A program made the translations under genes and the position numbers. Under the pieces are notes generated by a model, which was not told where the DNA came from, did no database searches, and saw only the letters and a program-made list of their open reading frames with translations. From Nitrosospira sp. 56-18 (GTDB lineage Bacteria; Pseudomonadota; Gammaproteobacteria; Burkholderiales; Nitrosomonadaceae): a stretch of DNA of 64,000 nucleotides. Shown piece after piece: positions 20,529-28,839 of the stretch; position 1 is the stretch's first letter; each line of letters begins with the position of its first letter. The stretch is taken from positions 1-64,000 of the forward strand of contig MKVR01000020.1 in the NCBI GenBank assembly GCA_001899235.1. Reading direction: 5' to 3'.

Positions 20529-20557
20529 TTGACAGCGGCATTTACCCATACTAGTTT
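20529..20557 (+). promoter_or_regulatory. Candidate sigma-70 promoter of the RiPP-like locus
   Basis: A perfect -35 TTGACA (20529-20534) is followed after 17 bp by TAGTTT (20552-20557), a weak -10. It is the best promoter-like pair in the 305-bp gap before the repeat-peptide gene, about 130 bp upstream of its start. Assignment is by sequence only. Confidence 0.35.
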
Positions 20558-20564
20558 TAAGGTT

Positions 20565-20624
20565 GGACCGAAACATGTTCCGGGGGGAAGCATGCTCTTA
20601 TTCTTGAGCCAATAGTTTCGGTCC
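20565..20624. promoter_or_regulatory. Long inverted repeat in the leader of the RiPP-like locus
   Basis: GGACCGAAAC (20565-20574) and its exact complement GTTTCGGTCC (20615-20624) enclose 40 bp. Placed just after the candidate promoter, it could be an operator pair for a dimeric regulator or a leader hairpin in the mRNA. No regulator gene is adjacent. Confidence 0.5.
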
Positions 20625-20690
20625 GCCAGCGCGTTCCTTCTCCCGACCCCGCGAGTTATCCGACCCAATACCACAATAAAGGAGTCAGCC

Positions 20691-21386
20691 ATGTCCGATG
20701 AACAAAACCCAGATGATTCCCCGCAAGCACCTCAACCCGATGCACCTGCGGCCGCTGCCGCCACCCCGCAACCGCGCGCCCTGGCTTTGAATGCCAAGCT
20801 GGCAGATTTGACCGTTGCCGACCTGAATTCCATCATTGCCGCGGAAACCAACCGGGCGATTGCCTCCCGCTTCGGCAATATCGGGAGAGCGGGTGCTCAT
20901 GTCAATTCCGGTCCTCCAGGATTCGTGAATGGAGGCGGTCATGCCAACTTCGATCCATCCCACGTCAATTCAGGACCCCCGGGGTTCGTCAACGGTGGCG
21001 GTCACGCGAATTTCGATCCAGCGCGCAATCTTGGAGCACAAGTTAACGTGGCCAACGTCGGCAATCTCGCCAATCTGGGGAGGGCGGGAGTGCATGTCAA
21101 TTCCGGTCCTCCAGGATTCGTCAACGGCGGCGGTCATGCCAATTTCGATCCTGCCAGGGGTGTGGCCGGCAATCGCATCAATGTCGCCAATCTGGCCCAG
21201 GCCGGGTCTCATGTGAATTCCGGCCCTCCAGGATTCGTCAATGGTGGTGGCCATGCCAATTTCGATCCCCGGACCAATTTGGGAGCAGCCTTAGTCAACG
21301 TGACCCTGCCGGATGGGGGCCAGGTGGCCATTCCGGGCTCCGGACCGGTGGATCTGCAGGTGCGCGGTTTTCGTATCACACGCTGA
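20691..21386 (+). CDS. Repeat-bearing RiPP-type precursor peptide
   Basis: The 231-residue product has no signal peptide and no catalytic motif. An acidic, Pro/Ala-rich N-terminus (about 1-30) and a leader-like helix (about 33-60: LNAKLADLTVADLNSIIAAETNRAI) precede four identical units HVNSGPPGFVNGGGHANFDP at residues 70-89, 91-110, 135-154 and 174-193. Units 1 and 2 are separated by one Ser. The other spacers have NVANVGNLANLGRAG-like text. A valine-rich tail (VNVTLPDGGQVAIPG) ends the protein. A strong AAAGGAG precedes the ATG. The repeats, the leader helix and the downstream maturase genes together indicate a ribosomally made, modified peptide. I do not recognise this peptide family. The product is unlikely to be an enzyme. 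Confidence 0.75.
   Translation: MSDEQNPDDSPQAPQPDAPAAAAATPQPRALALNAKLADLTVADLNSIIAAETNRAIASRFGNIGRAGAHVNSGPPGFVNGGGHANFDPSHVNSGPPGFVNGGGHANFDPARNLGAQVNVANVGNLANLGRAGVHVNSGPPGFVNGGGHANFDPARGVAGNRINVANLAQAGSHVNSGPPGFVNGGGHANFDPRTNLGAALVNVTLPDGGQVAIPGSGPVDLQVRGFRITR
20898..21269 (+). repeat. Four perfect 20-residue coding repeats
   Basis: 60-bp units at 20898-20957, 20961-21020, 21093-21152 and 21210-21269. They encode identical peptides, yet the DNA differs at many third codon positions (for example CATGTCAATTCC, CACGTCAATTCA, CATGTGAATTCC). The sequence has thus been held constant at protein level by selection, not merely by recent duplication. Confidence 0.95.
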
Positions 21387-21398
21387 CACAGGCAGTTG

Positions 21399-22556
21399 AT
21401 GAACTCCAAGCCGGTTTTCGGCGCGGCCTGGTCCGGCCGCGCCGAGGGGCTACTTCACACGTTCGTCGCGGCTGCCTGCCAGTCCCAGGAATTCAGGCGA
21501 GCACTCCAGGGCGAACCAGTTGCGGCACTGCGCCAATGGCAGTGGGAATGCACCGATGTTCCCAAATCTCTCCGTCCCCCTTCAGAAGCATTGTCGGTCA
21601 CGATCGATGATGCGAACCTGTGGGGGCCGCCGGAGTGGCGAACCGAGCCGGACAGGACGATGCTGCGTCAATCGCAGTTACGCCTGCTGCTCGCTGGCGC
21701 CAAGCCCCTGGTGCTGATGCACGGTGACGAGCGCAACCTGACGGCTTTGGCGAACTGGGCCCGACAGCGGAGTTATTTCACGCTGCTGGGACCGTACCAA
21801 TTCCTGCCGCAGCATGATTCCTGCAAGGGCGGCTACAGCAATCGCATGGCCAGTGTATCGAGCGCCCATGCGGGATCAGGAGCGTGGCGGGGACTGCTGA
21901 TCAGCCCGGACGAACAAACTGTGCTCATGGCCTGGTTGTGCCTGCTGTTTGGATGGGAAAAATTCCTGGGGAGATTGCTAGGCTACCCGCGCTGCTGCTG
22001 CGAAGCGTTCGAGAACCGATGGCCTGCGGCCTCTTCTTTTCATGAAGGTGACATGGGCCTCATGCTTTTATCGCAATCAGAACCAGAAACGGGACCAGAA
22101 ACCGGCGAAGGCATTTACAAGCTGGACTGGACGGTGAATATCTTTGCGCGCTACTTCGGCTGGGAAGTCATCCAGCATTTTCCCTGCAGTTGGGATTGCG
22201 CCGCAACGGCGAGCCTGGCCCACCGCTATTTTTCCATTCTTTCGCATTACTGGCCCGAGGACATGGGGCAAATCCGGCGATACCTGTCTTCGCCCCTGCT
22301 GGTGACCGCTTCGCACGGCTACGGCTTGTTTCCCGGCGGAAAACTGGTTTCGGAGAAGGCTGGTCCGTGCCTGATCTATGATCCCGGACTGGTCCAAATC
22401 ATCGGCATGGAAGATGCGCTTGTGAAGAAAATCATGTCTTCGTCATTCATGGCCGCGGGCAAGAATGGCAGCTGGAGAATCGCCGGCAACGACGTTCCCG
22501 GTTGGCTGCTGGGATTCGGCATTGATCAGCCCGCTATCGAGGAGGCATACGGATGA
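21399..22556 (+). CDS. DUF483-like Cys-rich protein of the RiPP-like locus
   Basis: About 385 residues from ATG 21399 (a TTG at 21396 is also possible). AGG lies six bases upstream of the ATG. The distinctive segment LGYPRCCCEAF (196-206) and the later FPCSWDCAATASLAHRYF (262-279) match the conserved GYPxCC and PCSxxC pattern of DUF483-type proteins, whose function is not established. The clustered Cys residues could bind metal or a cofactor. The N-terminal region (about 14-75) has a helical part plus LRPPSEALSVTIDDANLW, which could bind peptide. It starts 12 bp after the precursor stop, and its stop overlaps the radical SAM start (ATGA), so it is translationally coupled to the maturase. A role in peptide maturation is inferred from position. 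Confidence 0.65.
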   Translation: MNSKPVFGAAWSGRAEGLLHTFVAAACQSQEFRRALQGEPVAALRQWQWECTDVPKSLRPPSEALSVTIDDANLWGPPEWRTEPDRTMLRQSQLRLLLAGAKPLVLMHGDERNLTALANWARQRSYFTLLGPYQFLPQHDSCKGGYSNRMASVSSAHAGSGAWRGLLISPDEQTVLMAWLCLLFGWEKFLGRLLGYPRCCCEAFENRWPAASSFHEGDMGLMLLSQSEPETGPETGEGIYKLDWTVNIFARYFGWEVIQHFPCSWDCAATASLAHRYFSILSHYWPEDMGQIRRYLSSPLLVTASHGYGLFPGGKLVSEKAGPCLIYDPGLVQIIGMEDALVKKIMSSSFMAAGKNGSWRIAGNDVPGWLLGFGIDQPAIEEAYG

Positions 22557-24136
22557 AATATTTCAGCAGGCCCAGCAGGGAAAGCGCGGAAGGCGAGTAC
22601 CTGGCGGGAGTTTTCGGCAAACATTATGAACCGTTCGGAACAATCGGCCTGAGCGATGCGACCATGCTGGGCACGGAGGGGGTGGTTCTGGAAGACATTT
22701 CCGGAGACACCCTCGCGATCCACCCGGAAAACGCGTCATGGGCATTTCTCAGCCCAGGCGAAGCCAGGTGGTTTCCCCATCTGCACAACAAGCCGTTCGG
22801 CTGGTTGCGGCACGGCATGCTGCAGCACGGCCCGGATGCCGCGCTCGACTTTGCCGCCCATCTCTACCGCAGGGGGTTATTGACCCTCAACAATCATGCC
22901 GCGGTGGACCAGCGGATGTTCGCGGATGGCCCAAATTATGACGAGGGCAATTTGATCGAACTGCTCATTACGGAAAAGTGCAATCTCGCCTGCCCGTATT
23001 GCCTCGCGGGCGCCAACTCGTCCATGCCTGCCATGAATAGCGAGATCGCCCGGAAAACCGTGGATCTCGCGTTCAACATGGCGGAGAGCAATGTCCTGGC
23101 TTTCGAATTCGCCGGGGGGGAGCCGTTTCTCAAGTACGACCTCATGAAAGAAACGGTGGCATACATTCGCAATCACCCTTTGAAAGGCAACCGCAGGCTG
23201 TTTCTCAGCACACAGACCAATGCCACATTGCTGAACGAGGAGCGGGTCCGCTGGCTGAAGGAACAGGATATACGGGTGGGAATCTCCATAGATGGGGGTG
23301 CCCAGGCGCAGAATAAAAGCCGGCCGCAGGTTAACGGCAAGGAATCGTTCAGCAAGCTGGCCAGGGGAATCGATCTGCTGCATCGTTTCGAAGTGCCTTT
23401 TGGCGGTCTGGTAGTCCTGAACCGGTCCAATGCAGATGATCCGGCGGAACTGGCTACCACCCTGCTGGATCTGGGCATACATGGGTTCCGGTTGAATCCC
23501 ATCGCGTATCTGGGCGACGCGCGGAAAAACTGGAACCAGGTGGGCTTGAGCCAGGAACATATCATCGGGTTCATGAAAGGCCTGATGGCGCATATCGTGG
23601 ACCGGAAATTACCGCTGCTCGAAGACAACGTTCGCAGCATGTGCGATTTTCTAACCAGCAAGCAGCGCAGGACGCGCTGCATGCGGACGCATTGCGGAGC
23701 GGGAGATACCTTTCAGGCGGTTGCTGCCAATGGCGACATCTACCCGTGCGGACGGGCCACGCAGTCGCCCGGACTGAAGCTGGGGAATATCTTCGATCCC
23801 GGTCTGGAAAGCCTTTCCCAGCCGTCGAGGAGCAACGACGTCATGGCACAGATTCGCGAACGCAGGCCGGCCGATCTCGAAGGATGCAGCAACTGCTCTT
23901 ACAGGCAATTATGCCAGTCCGGATGTTCGGCCCAGGCTTGGGAGCGCTATGGCACAGTACGGCATCGCACCCCGGAATGCACCTTTTACAAAACGCTGTA
24001 TCCCTATCTGATGCACTGGCTGTCTTTCGATGAAATGGCATTCGACCATCTGAATGCGTACAGCTATTTCAATAACGAGGGCAGGCATTTCTCACGCGAC
24101 TTCGCTCCCGTCGCCGGCGTGCCGGTAACAGCGTGA
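22553..24136 (+). CDS. Radical SAM/SPASM peptide maturase
   Basis: A 527-residue radical SAM enzyme. Cys143, Cys147 and Cys150 form the CxxxCxxC that binds the SAM-cleaving [4Fe-4S] cluster (KCNLACPYC), and FAGGEPFL (187-193) is the SAM-contact motif. The C-terminal SPASM region has Cys376, 381, 399, 445, 448, 454, 458 and 476 in the spacing of auxiliary clusters (CGAGDTFQAVAANGDIYPCG, CSNCSYRQLCQSGC). Residues about 40-112 look like a PqqD-type peptide-recognition module, ending in the typical helix LDFAAHLYRRGLL. SPASM enzymes of this type modify ribosomal peptides, often by linking side chains. AGGAGG at 22540-22545 drives its start, which overlaps the preceding stop by 4 bases. The neighbouring repeat peptide is the likely substrate. 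Confidence 0.9.
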   Translation: MKYFSRPSRESAEGEYLAGVFGKHYEPFGTIGLSDATMLGTEGVVLEDISGDTLAIHPENASWAFLSPGEARWFPHLHNKPFGWLRHGMLQHGPDAALDFAAHLYRRGLLTLNNHAAVDQRMFADGPNYDEGNLIELLITEKCNLACPYCLAGANSSMPAMNSEIARKTVDLAFNMAESNVLAFEFAGGEPFLKYDLMKETVAYIRNHPLKGNRRLFLSTQTNATLLNEERVRWLKEQDIRVGISIDGGAQAQNKSRPQVNGKESFSKLARGIDLLHRFEVPFGGLVVLNRSNADDPAELATTLLDLGIHGFRLNPIAYLGDARKNWNQVGLSQEHIIGFMKGLMAHIVDRKLPLLEDNVRSMCDFLTSKQRRTRCMRTHCGAGDTFQAVAANGDIYPCGRATQSPGLKLGNIFDPGLESLSQPSRSNDVMAQIRERRPADLEGCSNCSYRQLCQSGCSAQAWERYGTVRHRTPECTFYKTLYPYLMHWLSFDEMAFDHLNAYSYFNNEGRHFSRDFAPVAGVPVTA

Positions 24137-25386
24137 ACGCTCCCGATATTTCCCTTCCCGGCTTCAAGGAACAGCTCCCGGCGGAGGTGCTGACGGACTG
24201 CGCCGGCCTGTGCTATCCCGCGGGACCCGGCAATACCGTCGACATGCTGTTCGAGCTGGCTGCGCTGACCCGGTCGGAGCGATTCCGCCATCGCCTTTCC
24301 ACAGCGCTGGAAGCAATGTATTTTACGGATGCAAGCGAGCTCCAGCTTGCGCGGCATGCTGTCGCGGTGCTGGATCGCCTGCCCGCGGACAGCCGCGCCC
24401 GCCTGTTCGGCACGCCGCTGGCAGAAACGGATGCCGTGCGGCATGATCCGGGCAGGACGAGTGGCGGCGATAAATCGAAGCATCTGCTCTCAAGCATACG
24501 CCACCTTGTTCATCACCCCGACGTCCGCGATATCGCTTTTATTCTTCCGCCATGCCTGTTTTATCAGGGAGTTTTTTATCTGCCGCATATTCACGCTCTT
24601 CTCCTCAGGGGTACGGAGGGCGCGACCATCGCCGTCGTCGAAAAACATGGCAAAACGCATTTCGTCTGGAGCGACGGTCCAAGCATCACACTGGCCAATG
24701 ACGGCAGCGGGTTGCCGCCAGGGTTCAAGCATCCCCGCCTTGCGGCGCTGCCCCGCATCGGAAGATTTGCCATACTCAATGGCGCACCCGAGGCCGCGCC
24801 GCTGCTTTCGCCGTTCGACCCGGCAACGGATGAAGAGATCAAGGAAGGAGCAGACCGGATATCTCTTGCACTGGAGCTTCTTGAGCAGATCTGGCCGCAT
24901 GCTTTCCACGCGATCCACCGGCATGTGAAAGCATTCTGCATCCTGAAGCAGCGCGGTTATTCGCGCAGCCATAGCCCTCCGGAGCTGCCAGGAACCATAT
25001 TGATGAGCGCGGATGAAGTGGTGCGGATAGGCGACCTGCTGTGCCATGAATCAAGCCATGTGCGGATGAATGTTTTCCGGCTCTACGATCCAATCGCCCA
25101 GGCCCGCGATCCCAAGGCGGAAGCAGCAGGCTTCATCTCACCCTGGCGGCCGGATCTGCGCCCGCTAAAAGGACTGATCGACGGCGTGCACGCGTTCCTC
25201 AACGTATGCCGATATCATCGCAAGCTGGGGGAATGGTGCGATGGCGCATGGATCCCGGGTGCGATCTATGAACGGCAAAAACAGAATGTCATCCAGGCCA
25301 ATGCGTTGCTGCTGCAGCACGCAGCCCCTACCCGGATTGGAGCCATGCTGATGGAGGAATTCATCCGCGAGGAGGCATTGGTGTGA
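24133..25386 (+). CDS. HExxH peptide-modification protein
   Basis: A 417-residue protein with HESSH at 305-309 and the following block SPWRPDLRPLKGLIDGVHAFLNV (336-358), in which His353 is a candidate third metal ligand. This pairing matches the HExxH family found beside or fused to FxsB-type radical SAM maturases. Members of that family have been described as alpha-ketoglutarate-dependent peptide beta-hydroxylases rather than proteases. The N-terminal half is variable. The GTG start overlaps the radical SAM stop (GTGA), so the two are translated together. The likely role is hydroxylation of the repeat peptide; this is family-based inference. Confidence 0.75.
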   Translation: MNAPDISLPGFKEQLPAEVLTDCAGLCYPAGPGNTVDMLFELAALTRSERFRHRLSTALEAMYFTDASELQLARHAVAVLDRLPADSRARLFGTPLAETDAVRHDPGRTSGGDKSKHLLSSIRHLVHHPDVRDIAFILPPCLFYQGVFYLPHIHALLLRGTEGATIAVVEKHGKTHFVWSDGPSITLANDGSGLPPGFKHPRLAALPRIGRFAILNGAPEAAPLLSPFDPATDEEIKEGADRISLALELLEQIWPHAFHAIHRHVKAFCILKQRGYSRSHSPPELPGTILMSADEVVRIGDLLCHESSHVRMNVFRLYDPIAQARDPKAEAAGFISPWRPDLRPLKGLIDGVHAFLNVCRYHRKLGEWCDGAWIPGAIYERQKQNVIQANALLLQHAAPTRIGAMLMEEFIREEALV

Positions 25387-26090
25387 GCAATATTTCTCCC
25401 GGCGCAGCCACCAGCCCAGCGATCGGGGATGCGGCGACCGGTCCCGCCTATCCCGCCTATCCCGCCCGTCCCGCAGGAGATTTGCGGATCGACCCGCAAT
25501 CGCTTGCACGCCTTCGCACCGAATTTCGCAGCCGAGGGGCGGCAGTCCACGGCCCCCCTGCCATTCAGGCTGACATCCACGCACAGCTTTTGAACGAAGC
25601 CCTGGCGCAACGGGAGAGTGCAAGCTGGAGCCTGATAGCCAACGGATGTCCGGGCGAGATTTCGCAACACAACCTGCGCGCCTATCTCGGCCCGCATGCA
25701 AGAAATTTTCTCGCCGCGCCCGAGGTGCTGGAAAATCTGCGGCAGGTGACTGGATACCGGCTCGTTCCCTCATGGAGCGCCAGTTGTTATACCTATTATG
25801 ATGGCCCCGGCCAGCACATGGGCGAGCACTGCGACAAAGAAGAAGCATGCCGAATAGCCCTGCTGGTTTATTTGCAGACTATCTGGGCGCCGGGCACGCA
25901 GCCTTCCACGGGGCTTCAGCTGCATGTGTTCCGGAGCGACAATGCGGCAAGCGGGCTGGTGCTTCGAATTACCGCGTTGTCCAACCGCATCGTCTTTCTG
26001 AATGGCGCGGAGCAGGCGCACCTGCGGCCCGCGCTTGCTCCGGGGGAACATATGACCCTGCTGGCCGGTTGCTATCAGTTGTCACCCTAA
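25383..26090 (+). CDS. Prolyl-hydroxylase-like 2OG-Fe(II) oxygenase
   Basis: The 235-residue protein begins with a disordered Ala/Pro-rich segment. The oxygenase core has the metal triad His149-x-Asp151 (GEHCDKEEACRIALLVYL) and a distal His213 in FLNGAEQAHLRPALAPG. Its fold cues (SWSASCYTYYDGPGQHMGEHCD) match prolyl 4-hydroxylase-type enzymes. The usual basic residue that anchors 2-oxoglutarate, normally about ten positions past the distal His in a GxR context, reads G-E-H, so His or a nearby Arg (215) would have to serve. The GTG start overlaps the previous stop. The GPPG in each precursor repeat is a plausible Pro target. Confidence 0.7.
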   Translation: MSNISPGAATSPAIGDAATGPAYPAYPARPAGDLRIDPQSLARLRTEFRSRGAAVHGPPAIQADIHAQLLNEALAQRESASWSLIANGCPGEISQHNLRAYLGPHARNFLAAPEVLENLRQVTGYRLVPSWSASCYTYYDGPGQHMGEHCDKEEACRIALLVYLQTIWAPGTQPSTGLQLHVFRSDNAASGLVLRITALSNRIVFLNGAEQAHLRPALAPGEHMTLLAGCYQLSP

Positions 26091-26103
26091 CGAAAATCCA
26101 ACC

Positions 26104-26697
26104 ATGCAGTGGAACGACTGGCCACCCTCCGACCCGAACCTCATGCCGGGCTACGAAGCCTGGCGTGAAGGAAGACTGAACGACGCCCAAGCATTTTTTG
26201 AGGGGCAGGCAAGTATGCGCCCCGATTGCGACGATATCTGGCGCGGACTTGGAAATGTCGCCTGGGTTCGCCACGATTTCAGGAATGCCCTCACTCATTT
26301 CAGCACGGCATTGCGCCTCGCGCCCTGGAATCCCATGCACTGGGGAAACATGGGCCTGGTTCGCCGCGACCTTGGCGAGCCGGAAGCCGCAATCGCCGCA
26401 TTTTGTGTCGCGCTGGGCCTGGATGCCGAATATGCGCCCGCCCTCAACGAATGGGCCAACGTGCTGTTCGACACGGGCAAGCATGAACAGGCGCTGCCGC
26501 TATATGACGCGGCTCTCGCCATTGATGATACCCGAGCGGTGGTTTACCATAACAAAGGCGTGTGTTTGCGGTATCTGGGCAGGCTGCCGGAAGCGGTGGA
26601 ATATTTTGAAGCCGCACTGGCACGGGACCCTCATTATCATTACTCGCTGGAAGAACTCCGACGATTGTCCGGCTGCGTGGCTATAGCCGGAAGATAG
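26104..26697 (+). CDS. TPR protein of the RiPP-like locus
   Basis: The 197-residue protein is built of about five tetratricopeptide repeats, seen from the alternating helices with A-x-x-x-F/Y and P-x-x-x-x-x-W/L patterns (GLGNVAWVRHDFRNALTHFSTALRLAP, NMGLVRRDLGEPEAAIAAF, NEWANVLFDTGKHEQALPLYDAALAI, NKGVCLRYLGRLPEAVEYFEAAL). It has no signal peptide. It starts 13 bp after the oxygenase gene. TPR proteins usually scaffold protein complexes, so a role in assembling the maturation enzymes or holding the repeat peptide is possible. Confidence 0.75.
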   Translation: MQWNDWPPSDPNLMPGYEAWREGRLNDAQAFFEGQASMRPDCDDIWRGLGNVAWVRHDFRNALTHFSTALRLAPWNPMHWGNMGLVRRDLGEPEAAIAAFCVALGLDAEYAPALNEWANVLFDTGKHEQALPLYDAALAIDDTRAVVYHNKGVCLRYLGRLPEAVEYFEAALARDPHYHYSLEELRRLSGCVAIAGR

Positions 26698-26766
26698 CCA
26701 TCAACCTGAATCCGGCTCTTCCCGTACAAAGATATCCGCCTCTCTCCAGTCCCAGGAAGGAAAGCG

Positions 26767-28725
26767 ATGCCAGACAATAATGGTCAGCAGAAATCCCCTA
26801 CCTATGATGTCGTAATCGTGGGGGGAGGCATTGCCGGTTTGTATTGCTGCCACGAGCTGATCAAGCAAAGCGAACGGCTCAAAATAAACCGTATTCTTCT
26901 ACTCGAGGCCTCCGACCGGTTCGGCGGGCGGATAGAAACCTGGTCGCTGCTGCGAACCGGCGAAAAAAATGGAGAAGCAATCGGATTCGACGATACCTGG
27001 GACCCTTGCAACTGGGATTTTACAAGCGGAAAACCTGATCCGCTTGCGCCGCAAGGCGACAGGCAATCGCCCTATAAAGGGCCTACCGAAAAACAGCCGG
27101 CAAAGATAAATGGCGAAGCGGAAAGGCAATCGGAGATCGAATACCTGCGCGCGGAATTCGGTCCGATGAGAATCGAGCCGCGTGATCAGCCATTATTGCA
27201 GGCGCTGCTTAATGAACTGGGCATCCGGGAACAGATTCCCGGAGAGGAAGAGAGTCTTGATGACCTCGTCCCGTTTTCTTCCTATGCGTCGGAAGATCCG
27301 ATGGAGCCGAGATTTACGCTGCGGGAGGAAGAAGCCAAGCAAAAAACCCCTTTCGACTTGATGATATTGGCCCTTCGGCGCATTTTCGAGATGGTCGAGC
27401 TCGCGGGGCCGAAACCCTGGCAGACCGACGCGGCCAACGAACAGTGGAAAAACCTTAAGGACGAGGCCTTTTTCTATCGCCACTACTGGAAAGGGGAGTT
27501 GCTGGAGTGGATACACAACATTACTGACGAAGACCTGGATGTCATCAGGAAACAGGCGAGCTTCAGAGGGCAGCCGCTATGGAACCTGGGATTCTGGAAT
27601 GTGCTCAGCGATGTGTTGAGCCATTTTGCCGTGGTCAAGATAAGGGACTGGGGAAGCTACTATCATTTTGTCCATGAGAACCTGAATGCCGCGGAATGGA
27701 TTATTTTCTGGCTCAGGGCGATACGCGGGACAGGATCGCTTCGCGGCATCCGCGGGGGCATGAGCCGGATAATCTGGAAGCTGCTGGAAAAGCTGCACGA
27801 TGAAAGAGGTCCCTTGCTATGCATCCAGAAAGGCAGAAAGGTTGTCGATCTCCGGTCCAGCGGGAATGAGATAGATATCACCGTGGAAAACGAGAGCGAG
27901 GTCGTCAGGGCGAAAAGAGTGATACTCGCGCTGCCCAAGCGCCCGCTGGAAAAGTTGTCGTGGAACGGAAAAGGGCCGCAAAAGCAACTCAAGGCGGCCC
28001 TGGATGCGGTTGCCGGCCTTTCGCTGCTGAAGTGCTTTTTCGTGATCGAGCAGCCCTGGTGGGAAGATAACCGGCCCCTGAACCGCTACGCAGCAGATCT
28101 CCCCACCCGGGAACTGCTCTACGTAAAAAGCCATGATCGGACAAAGGGCTTGATCATGGTCTATACCGATCGCCCCGCCATCACATTCTGGTCGGATTAC
28201 CTGAGAACGATCGAATGCGCGCCTGATGATCAGGCGTGCCAGGAGCCATCGGAAAACCCCCAGCTCGAAAACCAGGAAACAGCCAGGACCTGGTTCCTGA
28301 AGCTGCGGAGGATATCCTGGCAAGGGAGTGCTCCCCCTTCCAGCCATGGGTTGTATTCTGGAAACGGGGGCGTGGCTATCGAGAGAGAACCGGGAAATCC
28401 GCGATTATGGCAGCGTTTCGTGCAGTTTGCGAGAGACTACGAACACCATGATTTTACCCAGGACCGCCTGCTCGCCTGCGGCATGCGCGACTGGGGCAAG
28501 AATCCTTTCGGCGCGGCGGCTCACGGCTGGCTGCCGGGCGTGATGTCCTGGAAACACATGGAGTTTCTGGAGGCATTTTCCCTTGATCAGAACTCTTCTT
28601 CCCCGAAAAATATCCATGTGTGCGGGGAGGCGTTTTCCGACTACCAGGGCTTTATCGAAGGCTCGCTAAGGTCCGCGCGCCGCGTTTTGCGCCATATCGA
28701 AAAACAGGCAAAAACAGAAAATTGA
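26767..28725 (+). CDS. FAD-dependent amine oxidase-like protein
   Basis: A 652-residue flavoprotein of the monoamine oxidase/phytoene desaturase superfamily. It has the dinucleotide motif VVIVGGGIAGLYCC (15-28), the partner motif LLEASDRFGGRIETW (about 48-62) and the C-terminal FAD-contact motif IHVCGEAFSDYQGFIEGSLRSARR. An extra charged region (about 75-215) with many Glu and Pro lies between the first two motifs and the rest. A strong AAGGAAAG precedes the ATG. It lies 69 bp after the TPR gene on the same strand and may be the last enzyme of the RiPP-like locus, perhaps oxidising an amine or side chain of the peptide, or it may be an independent gene. Confidence 0.7.
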   Translation: MPDNNGQQKSPTYDVVIVGGGIAGLYCCHELIKQSERLKINRILLLEASDRFGGRIETWSLLRTGEKNGEAIGFDDTWDPCNWDFTSGKPDPLAPQGDRQSPYKGPTEKQPAKINGEAERQSEIEYLRAEFGPMRIEPRDQPLLQALLNELGIREQIPGEEESLDDLVPFSSYASEDPMEPRFTLREEEAKQKTPFDLMILALRRIFEMVELAGPKPWQTDAANEQWKNLKDEAFFYRHYWKGELLEWIHNITDEDLDVIRKQASFRGQPLWNLGFWNVLSDVLSHFAVVKIRDWGSYYHFVHENLNAAEWIIFWLRAIRGTGSLRGIRGGMSRIIWKLLEKLHDERGPLLCIQKGRKVVDLRSSGNEIDITVENESEVVRAKRVILALPKRPLEKLSWNGKGPQKQLKAALDAVAGLSLLKCFFVIEQPWWEDNRPLNRYAADLPTRELLYVKSHDRTKGLIMVYTDRPAITFWSDYLRTIECAPDDQACQEPSENPQLENQETARTWFLKLRRISWQGSAPPSSHGLYSGNGGVAIEREPGNPRLWQRFVQFARDYEHHDFTQDRLLACGMRDWGKNPFGAAAHGWLPGVMSWKHMEFLEAFSLDQNSSSPKNIHVCGEAFSDYQGFIEGSLRSARRVLRHIEKQAKTEN

Positions 28726-28750
28726 GGAATCTCCGCAAAGATTCCCCAAT
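28721..28750 (+). other. Hairpin at the end of the RiPP-like locus
   Basis: An imperfect stem ATTGaGGAATCT / AGATTCCcCAAT (loop about 5 nt) covers the stop codon of the flavoprotein gene. There is no T-run, so it is not a standard intrinsic terminator. It separates this locus from metH and may act as a 3-prime stability element. Confidence 0.35.
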
Positions 28751-28839
28751 CCAGGCCTCCCTCGCCCCATCCGGGTGCCAAGGGAAAATACCGGCAGGTA
28801 CATGGTAGAATCCAGCCTCCGTCAAAATGCAGTCCTGCC

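Follow-up and report, generated by a model that had tools for sequence, protein, structure and literature searches.

A conserved six-gene RiPP-type cassette in Nitrosospira and Paracoccus yeei

The DNA analysed here (the window) is a stretch of 64,000 nucleotides from Nitrosospira sp. 56-18, contig MKVR01000020.1, and it carries a real, conserved six-gene cassette of the type that yields ribosomally synthesised and post-translationally modified peptides (RiPPs). The cassette encodes a repeat-containing precursor peptide, a DUF483-like protein, a radical SAM/SPASM enzyme, an HExxH enzyme, a 2-oxoglutarate (2OG) oxygenase and a TPR protein, and it is most likely an unfused, new form of the cyclophane and HExxH RiPP systems, with further partners. 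We hold it moderately probable that this cassette acts as modelled below, namely by cyclophane cross-linking and hydroxylation of the four identical repeats of the precursor.

The precursor gene (20691-21386, plus strand as all genes described here) encodes 231 aa, comprising a leader with a LADLTVADLNSII motif, the four repeats and a conserved C-terminal tail. After a gap of 9 bases come the genes for the DUF483-like protein (21396-22556), the SPASM maturase (22553-24136), the HExxH enzyme, of the alpha-ketoglutarate (alphaKG)-HExxH peptide beta-hydroxylase type (24133-25386), and the 2OG Fe(II) oxygenase, with a prolyl-4-hydroxylase-like predicted fold (25383-26090). The TPR gene (26104-26697) follows 13 bases later, and 69 bases separate it from a gene for a flavin adenine dinucleotide (FAD) oxidase (26767-28725). 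An earlier sequence-only reading of the region had named these seven open reading frames (ORFs) and described overlaps among genes two to five; all seven exist on the plus strand where it placed them, and neighbours share 4 bases at all three junctions. The G+C content of the cassette is about that of its surroundings, and a Pfam and NCBIfam family search found no peptidase or exporter among the six genes.

Seven distinct genomes share these six genes in the same order, namely Paracoccus yeei and six members of the window's genus, among them Nitrosovibrio tenuis, as determined from nine loci (the window and L003, L004, L005, L006 and L017-L020). Chance is ruled out because both gene content and gene order are kept in all seven. 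For P. yeei five records were found and three opened, the gene order of L004 being checked via its annotation. The weakest orthologue match is that of the DUF483-like protein to its P. yeei counterpart, at 36% identity over residues 64-293.

A plasmid search with the SPASM protein gave 524 records, of which four, all from P. yeei, showed about 65% identity, while the remaining 16 among the best 20 showed 24.6-28.8%. With the DUF483-like protein or the precursor as query, those four P. yeei records were the sole plasmid matches, and in the two P. yeei plasmid neighbourhoods the precursor, DUF483-like, SPASM, HExxH, oxygenase and TPR genes lie in the same order. Two further finds, P. yeei ATCC BAA-599 and Nitrosovibrio tenuis Nv1 (Betaproteobacteria, Nitrosomonadaceae), came from a scan of GTDB contigs; it used two short peptide patterns only and is not a census, so that rarity outside the sampled genomes is unproven. 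Neither viral contigs (searched with the DUF483-like protein and the precursor) nor phage records (searched with the precursor) contained relatives. A SPASM match from the GTDB contig scan, on a Nitrospinae contig (L007), has 26% identity over part of the enzyme.

Within the window's family, the SPASM gene was found in 6/125 genomes, all in the window's genus, and the precursor gene accompanies it in the same six; the DUF483-like gene is likewise confined to these six among the 23 genomes of the genus. Thus, within the family, neither a precursor without a maturase nor a SPASM gene with another precursor was encountered, and at all nine opened loci, window included, the SPASM orthologue is paired with this precursor. 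The co-occurrence and the conserved order support the proposal of the sequence-only reading that the locus is of the RiPP type and that the repeat peptide serves as its substrate. In wider samples, the SPASM profile was found in 1/295 genomes of the P. yeei family and in 1/289 of its class (both P. yeei itself) and in 1/398 of the window's phylum, and the DUF483-like protein in 1/399 of the window's order (both only the window's genome); these samples are parts of larger groups, and the five other carriers did not come up in that of the order.

A repeat invariant in protein but not in DNA

Each of the nine loci contains exactly four exact copies of the 20-residue HVNSGPPGFVNGGGHANFDP, which in the window occupy 20898-20957, 20961-21020, 21093-21152 and 21210-21269 (plus strand). 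The loci had been located through the SPASM gene and not through the repeat; copies were sought with the seed PGFxNG, which could miss a strongly decayed copy, and the alignment shows none. With one locus counted per genome (4 copies in each of 7 genomes), the protein sequence is identical in 28/28 copies, while the corresponding DNA sequences are 28 distinct ones in which all 20 codons vary. These differences require a minimum of 41 changes, every one of them at a third position, whereas silent changes make up 24% of all possible single ones. In the parts beyond the repeats, the remaining six precursors share 42-72% identity with that of the window.

Repeat DNA is 88% identical within genomes and 83% between them, and some homogenisation within genomes is therefore likely, but it does not explain the absence of protein change between genomes. 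That all 28 copies agree in protein between a betaproteobacterial genus and an alphaproteobacterium implies that each residue is needed, whether the demand comes from the enzymes or from an exacting target. The cores of RiPPs commonly differ from strain to strain and from species to species; a repeat identical to the last residue in bacteria of two classes points to a precisely tuned product and is the unusual feature of this cassette.

All seven precursors are devoid of Cys, Trp and Tyr, which excludes thioether maturation and tyrosine excision on this substrate. The three Asn of the repeat all lie at +2 from an aromatic residue (HVN, FVN and HAN), as in the substrates of three-residue cyclophane enzymes, a spacing that is suggestive only as a sign of cyclophane formation. 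The repeats also provide eight His per precursor and two Val per repeat. The linkers between them vary in length and sequence, with a Gly two residues before most repeats. Downstream of the last copy, the C-terminal tail (VTLPDGGQVAIP...VRGF.ITR, 21270-21383, plus strand), a candidate follower, is similar in 7/7 precursors, with VTLP and VRG invariant.

The predicted modifying enzymes and their partners

The SPASM enzyme scores above the Pfam cut-offs for both the radical SAM domain (PF04055, 63.6 bits, cut-off 29.5) and the SPASM domain (PF13186, 25.7 bits, cut-off 21.5), and the Cys residues of both domains are invariant in 7/7 orthologues. Judged by the motifs of its presumed substrate, it may work like a triceptide maturase. 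The HExxH enzyme exceeds the cut-off of TIGR04267 (72.1 bits, cut-off 40), and the residues of its metal site, H305, E306 and H309, are invariant in 7/7. Its profile also matches PDB entry 22nu, whose label reads only "radical SAM core domain protein", with 31.3 bits and an E value of 1e-6, the match including the PWRxDLRPxxGL stretch. The fourth gene is predicted to encode an alphaKG-HExxH peptide beta-hydroxylase.

The 2OG oxygenase remains below the Pfam cut-off for PF13640 (18.6 bits, cut-off 27), and the best of five AlphaFold models reached a predicted local distance difference test score (pLDDT) of 68.5, the other four ranging from 57.2 to 30.1. With this medium-quality model, the best Foldseek hit was the Pseudomonas putida prolyl-4-hydroxylase P4H (4j25_B; E 4e-8, template modelling score 0.50, root-mean-square deviation 7.4), and lysine and ornithine oxygenases of the HalD/BesD kind were matched as well. 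H149, D151 and H213 are invariant in 7/7 and would be the metal ligands of an HxD...H site.

The DUF483-like protein of the window matches PF04467 only over a 19-residue stretch (residues 190-208) and below the cut-off (17.2 bits, cut-off 25), while all seven orthologues match this family at E values up to 1, the best being 0.0016. GYPxCC and HFPCxxxC are invariant in 7/7, and their four Cys possibly form a metal site. The AlphaFold model of this protein was unusable (pLDDT 34.1), and a PDB profile search with its alignment found nothing credible, the best E value being 0.068. In one carrier of the genus (G481) the DUF483-like profile match (L039) crosses one TAG, and the protein may be shortened there. 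The TPR protein, for its part, scores above the cut-offs of several TPR models and is encoded in 7/7 genomes.

Proposed maturation of the repeats

From these data we infer a maturation scheme, which extends to the modified residues, the order of the steps, the roles of leader and tail and the fate of the product. The precursor would be bound via its leader (LADLTxxDLxxII) and perhaps also via its tail. The radical SAM/SPASM enzyme would then cross-link the aromatic residue to Asn (i to i+2) at HVN, FVN and HAN, giving three-residue cyclophanes in each unit, and the HExxH enzyme would beta-hydroxylate ring-associated residues (His, Asn or Asp). A second site, a Pro of GPPG or FDP, or an Asp, could be hydroxylated by the prolyl-hydroxylase-like enzyme, with the DUF483-like and TPR proteins serving as partner or scaffold. 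As there is no peptidase or exporter among the six genes, the product presumably either persists as a repeat protein or is processed by a protease of the housekeeping kind.

Several observations weigh in favour of this scheme: the gene order in seven genomes, the co-occurrence, the constraint on the repeats, the lack of Cys, Trp and Tyr, the Asn spacing, the TIGR04267 score of the HExxH enzyme, the precedent of ChlBH, the known Phe-Asn rings and the 2OG fold. According to passages of PMC11002830, enzymes that form three-residue cyclophanes are known to link Phe with Asn, and His with Ala or Arg, over the i to i+2 distance.

Other results weigh against it. A His-to-Asn cyclophane, which two of the three motifs require, does not appear in those passages of PMC11002830. 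The regularity of the aromatic-X-Asn motifs has a shuffle P of 0.003, which rises to 0.05 once 8 offsets and 5 target residues are taken into account. The SPASM enzyme finds its best NCBIfam match in the ranthipeptide enzyme PapB (168.8 bits, cut-off 340), and it falls short of both the GrrM model TIGR04261 (77.7 bits, cut-off 310) and the FxsB model TIGR04269 (62.3 bits, cut-off 370); membership in these three families was rejected on these scores, and the FxsB-type comparison drawn by the sequence-only reading is not supported. Matches below the cut-off to the GrrM and FxsB models were also obtained in 11/14 and 14/14 control genomes, respectively. A PDB search revealed no match resembling a RiPP recognition element (RRE) for the N terminus of the SPASM enzyme, a result that does not exclude one. 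Finally, the HExxH profile matches ChlH (8s5f) with 22.7 bits and the unrelated engineered protein 4rzp with 22.9 bits, so that the ChlH match carries no weight alone.

An unlikely alternative is that the SPASM enzyme performs another Cys-free radical reaction, such as cyclopropylglycine formation at Val (as by TvgB) or epimerisation, and that the two oxygenases hydroxylate its product. The two Val of each repeat would offer sites for it, TvgB is encoded beside an Fe/alphaKG enzyme (passages of PMC11002830), and the SPASM enzyme stays below the cut-off of every one of the best 25 among its 78 NCBIfam matches. However, such a reaction would leave the three aromatic-X-Asn motifs unaccounted for, and HAN contains no Val. 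It is quite improbable, in our view, that the HExxH enzyme instead cuts the backbone oxidatively and frees the 20-residue units as small peptides. This would compensate for the missing peptidase, is consistent with linkers that differ in length and sequence, and has precedents in PflC and PosC, which belong to the same broad family of HEXXH enzymes and cleave the backbone oxidatively (passages of PMC12636437); yet the PflC trigger ARMD is absent from the aligned precursors, and the linkers contain no invariant residue that would mark a cut site, other than the Gly at the second position ahead of most repeats. That the repeat protein is a structural or metal-binding protein, with the enzymes acting on another substrate, would fit the missing exporter and peptidase and the eight repeat His per precursor, but is very improbable given that the precursor, DUF483-like and SPASM genes strictly accompany one another in the genus, that the operon is tight and that the constraint is focused on the repeats.

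Cyclophane formation followed by hydroxylation is the scheme that we retain. It can be taken further, to an array of twelve rings (two His-Asn and one Phe-Asn cyclophane per unit, together with hydroxyls), with the DUF483-like protein as a new RiPP enzyme or obligatory partner and with an uncut, rigid, possibly metal-binding repeat protein that stays inside the cell and is not secreted; we offer this extension as speculation that is unlikely to hold in full.

Comparison with known RiPP systems

The closest parallel is ChlBH (Morishita et al. 2024, as cited in PMC12636437), in which, as described in passages of PMC12636437, a radical SAM domain is fused to an HExxH domain and the hydroxylation of Asp and His needs a preinstalled cyclophane. 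The cassette resembles it in bringing a radical SAM enzyme and an HExxH beta-hydroxylase to one precursor, with His and Asp as potential targets on a cyclophane scaffold. It differs in that its enzymes are separate proteins, in its additional DUF483-like, 2OG and TPR partners and in its four identical 20-residue cores.

With the triceptide pairs GrrA/OscA and GrrM/OscB it shares a Gly-rich repeat precursor (weak TIGR04260 match, E 0.0016), a SPASM enzyme and aromatic-X-Asn motifs, whereas the precursor reaches 19 bits against a TIGR04260 cut-off of 31 and the enzyme stays far below the GrrM cut-off. To our knowledge, the definition of GrrM includes neither an HExxH nor a 2OG partner. A SPASM enzyme is also common to the FxsB systems, with which HExxH proteins occur, but the precursor tail does not end in the FxSxx motif of those systems. 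As for PapB, the best match of the SPASM enzyme, ranthipeptide thioethers need Cys, which the precursor lacks; a sactipeptide, with a core Cys as its sulfur donor, is out of the question for the same reason.

Neither the repeat sequence nor the exact gene combination was found in open-access literature, among the matches listed for DUF483, Nitrosospira, Paracoccus yeei and Nitrosovibrio with RiPP terms; those listed for DUF483 did not contain that name. The sequence-only reading had considered the gene combination a new class. Since a cyclophane system with a radical SAM enzyme and an alphaKG-HExxH enzyme is already known in ChlBH (passages of PMC12636437), "new class" is stronger than the evidence allows. 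The cassette represents a compact test bed, with two likely oxygenases, a radical enzyme and two accessory proteins brought together on a Cys-free and Tyr-free core, and it should be useful for the study of His-Asn and Phe-Asn cyclophane chemistry, of unfused HExxH hydroxylases and of a protein group without known function.

Boundaries and surroundings of the cassette

Upstream of the precursor gene lies a conserved promoter-like element, TTGACA-N17-TAGTTT (20529-20557, plus strand), within CTTGACA...CATACTAGTTTTA; the first base of its TTGACA box, 20529, is where the sequence-only reading had set the start of the locus. CTTGACA is kept at 6/6 loci of the genus, 163-182 nt 5' of the start codon, but no such box was seen in the 260 nt that precede the P. 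yeei copy. The box and the AT-rich element that follows it could be a promoter plus operator. A generic promoter scan did not include this TTGACA element among its calls, and its yield of 5 promoters and 12 terminators was near chance, when compared to the 3.5 and 9.0 expected from shuffled sequence.

The six genes of the carrier G483 are flanked by a 506-aa ORF, which we take to be ComM/YifB-like, on one side and by the FAD gene on the other, and the same ORF precedes the cassette in G481 and G498. Among four non-carriers compared, this ORF adjoins the FAD gene in G487 and G495, while the FAD gene is elsewhere in G488 and G484. DNA similarity between G483 and G487 or G495 stops at the stop codon of the 506-aa ORF and restarts 30-48 bases inside the FAD gene, which indicates that the unit gained or lost there consists of the six genes and their upstream region, without the FAD gene.

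The FAD oxidase, a flavin amine oxidase by family search, had been counted into the set by the sequence-only reading and is here removed from it. Its gene occurs in 16/23 genomes of the genus, that is in 4/6 carriers of the cassette and 12/17 non-carriers, and it is missing from both P. yeei loci mapped as well as from the two remaining carriers. The upstream alpha/beta hydrolase was rejected as a member too: that of the window has no homologue in any of the seven other loci mapped, and it lacks detectable similarity to the one found in P. yeei (E 0.28).

In P. yeei (L003, 1176-2528; L004, 1-4009) a quinohemoprotein amine dehydrogenase cluster (peaA, peaB, qhpC and peaD), itself a system with a SPASM maturase, is located at a distance of a few kb from the cassette. 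The FAD amine-oxidase-like protein of the window bears a weak resemblance to VioA, and its gene is common in the genus whether or not the cassette is present; its match consists of two pieces inside one open frame in N. tenuis, G482, G496 and G500. On the minus strand, a stem-loop of 15 pairs with a T-rich tail (28719-28752) overlaps the end of the FAD gene, before metH.

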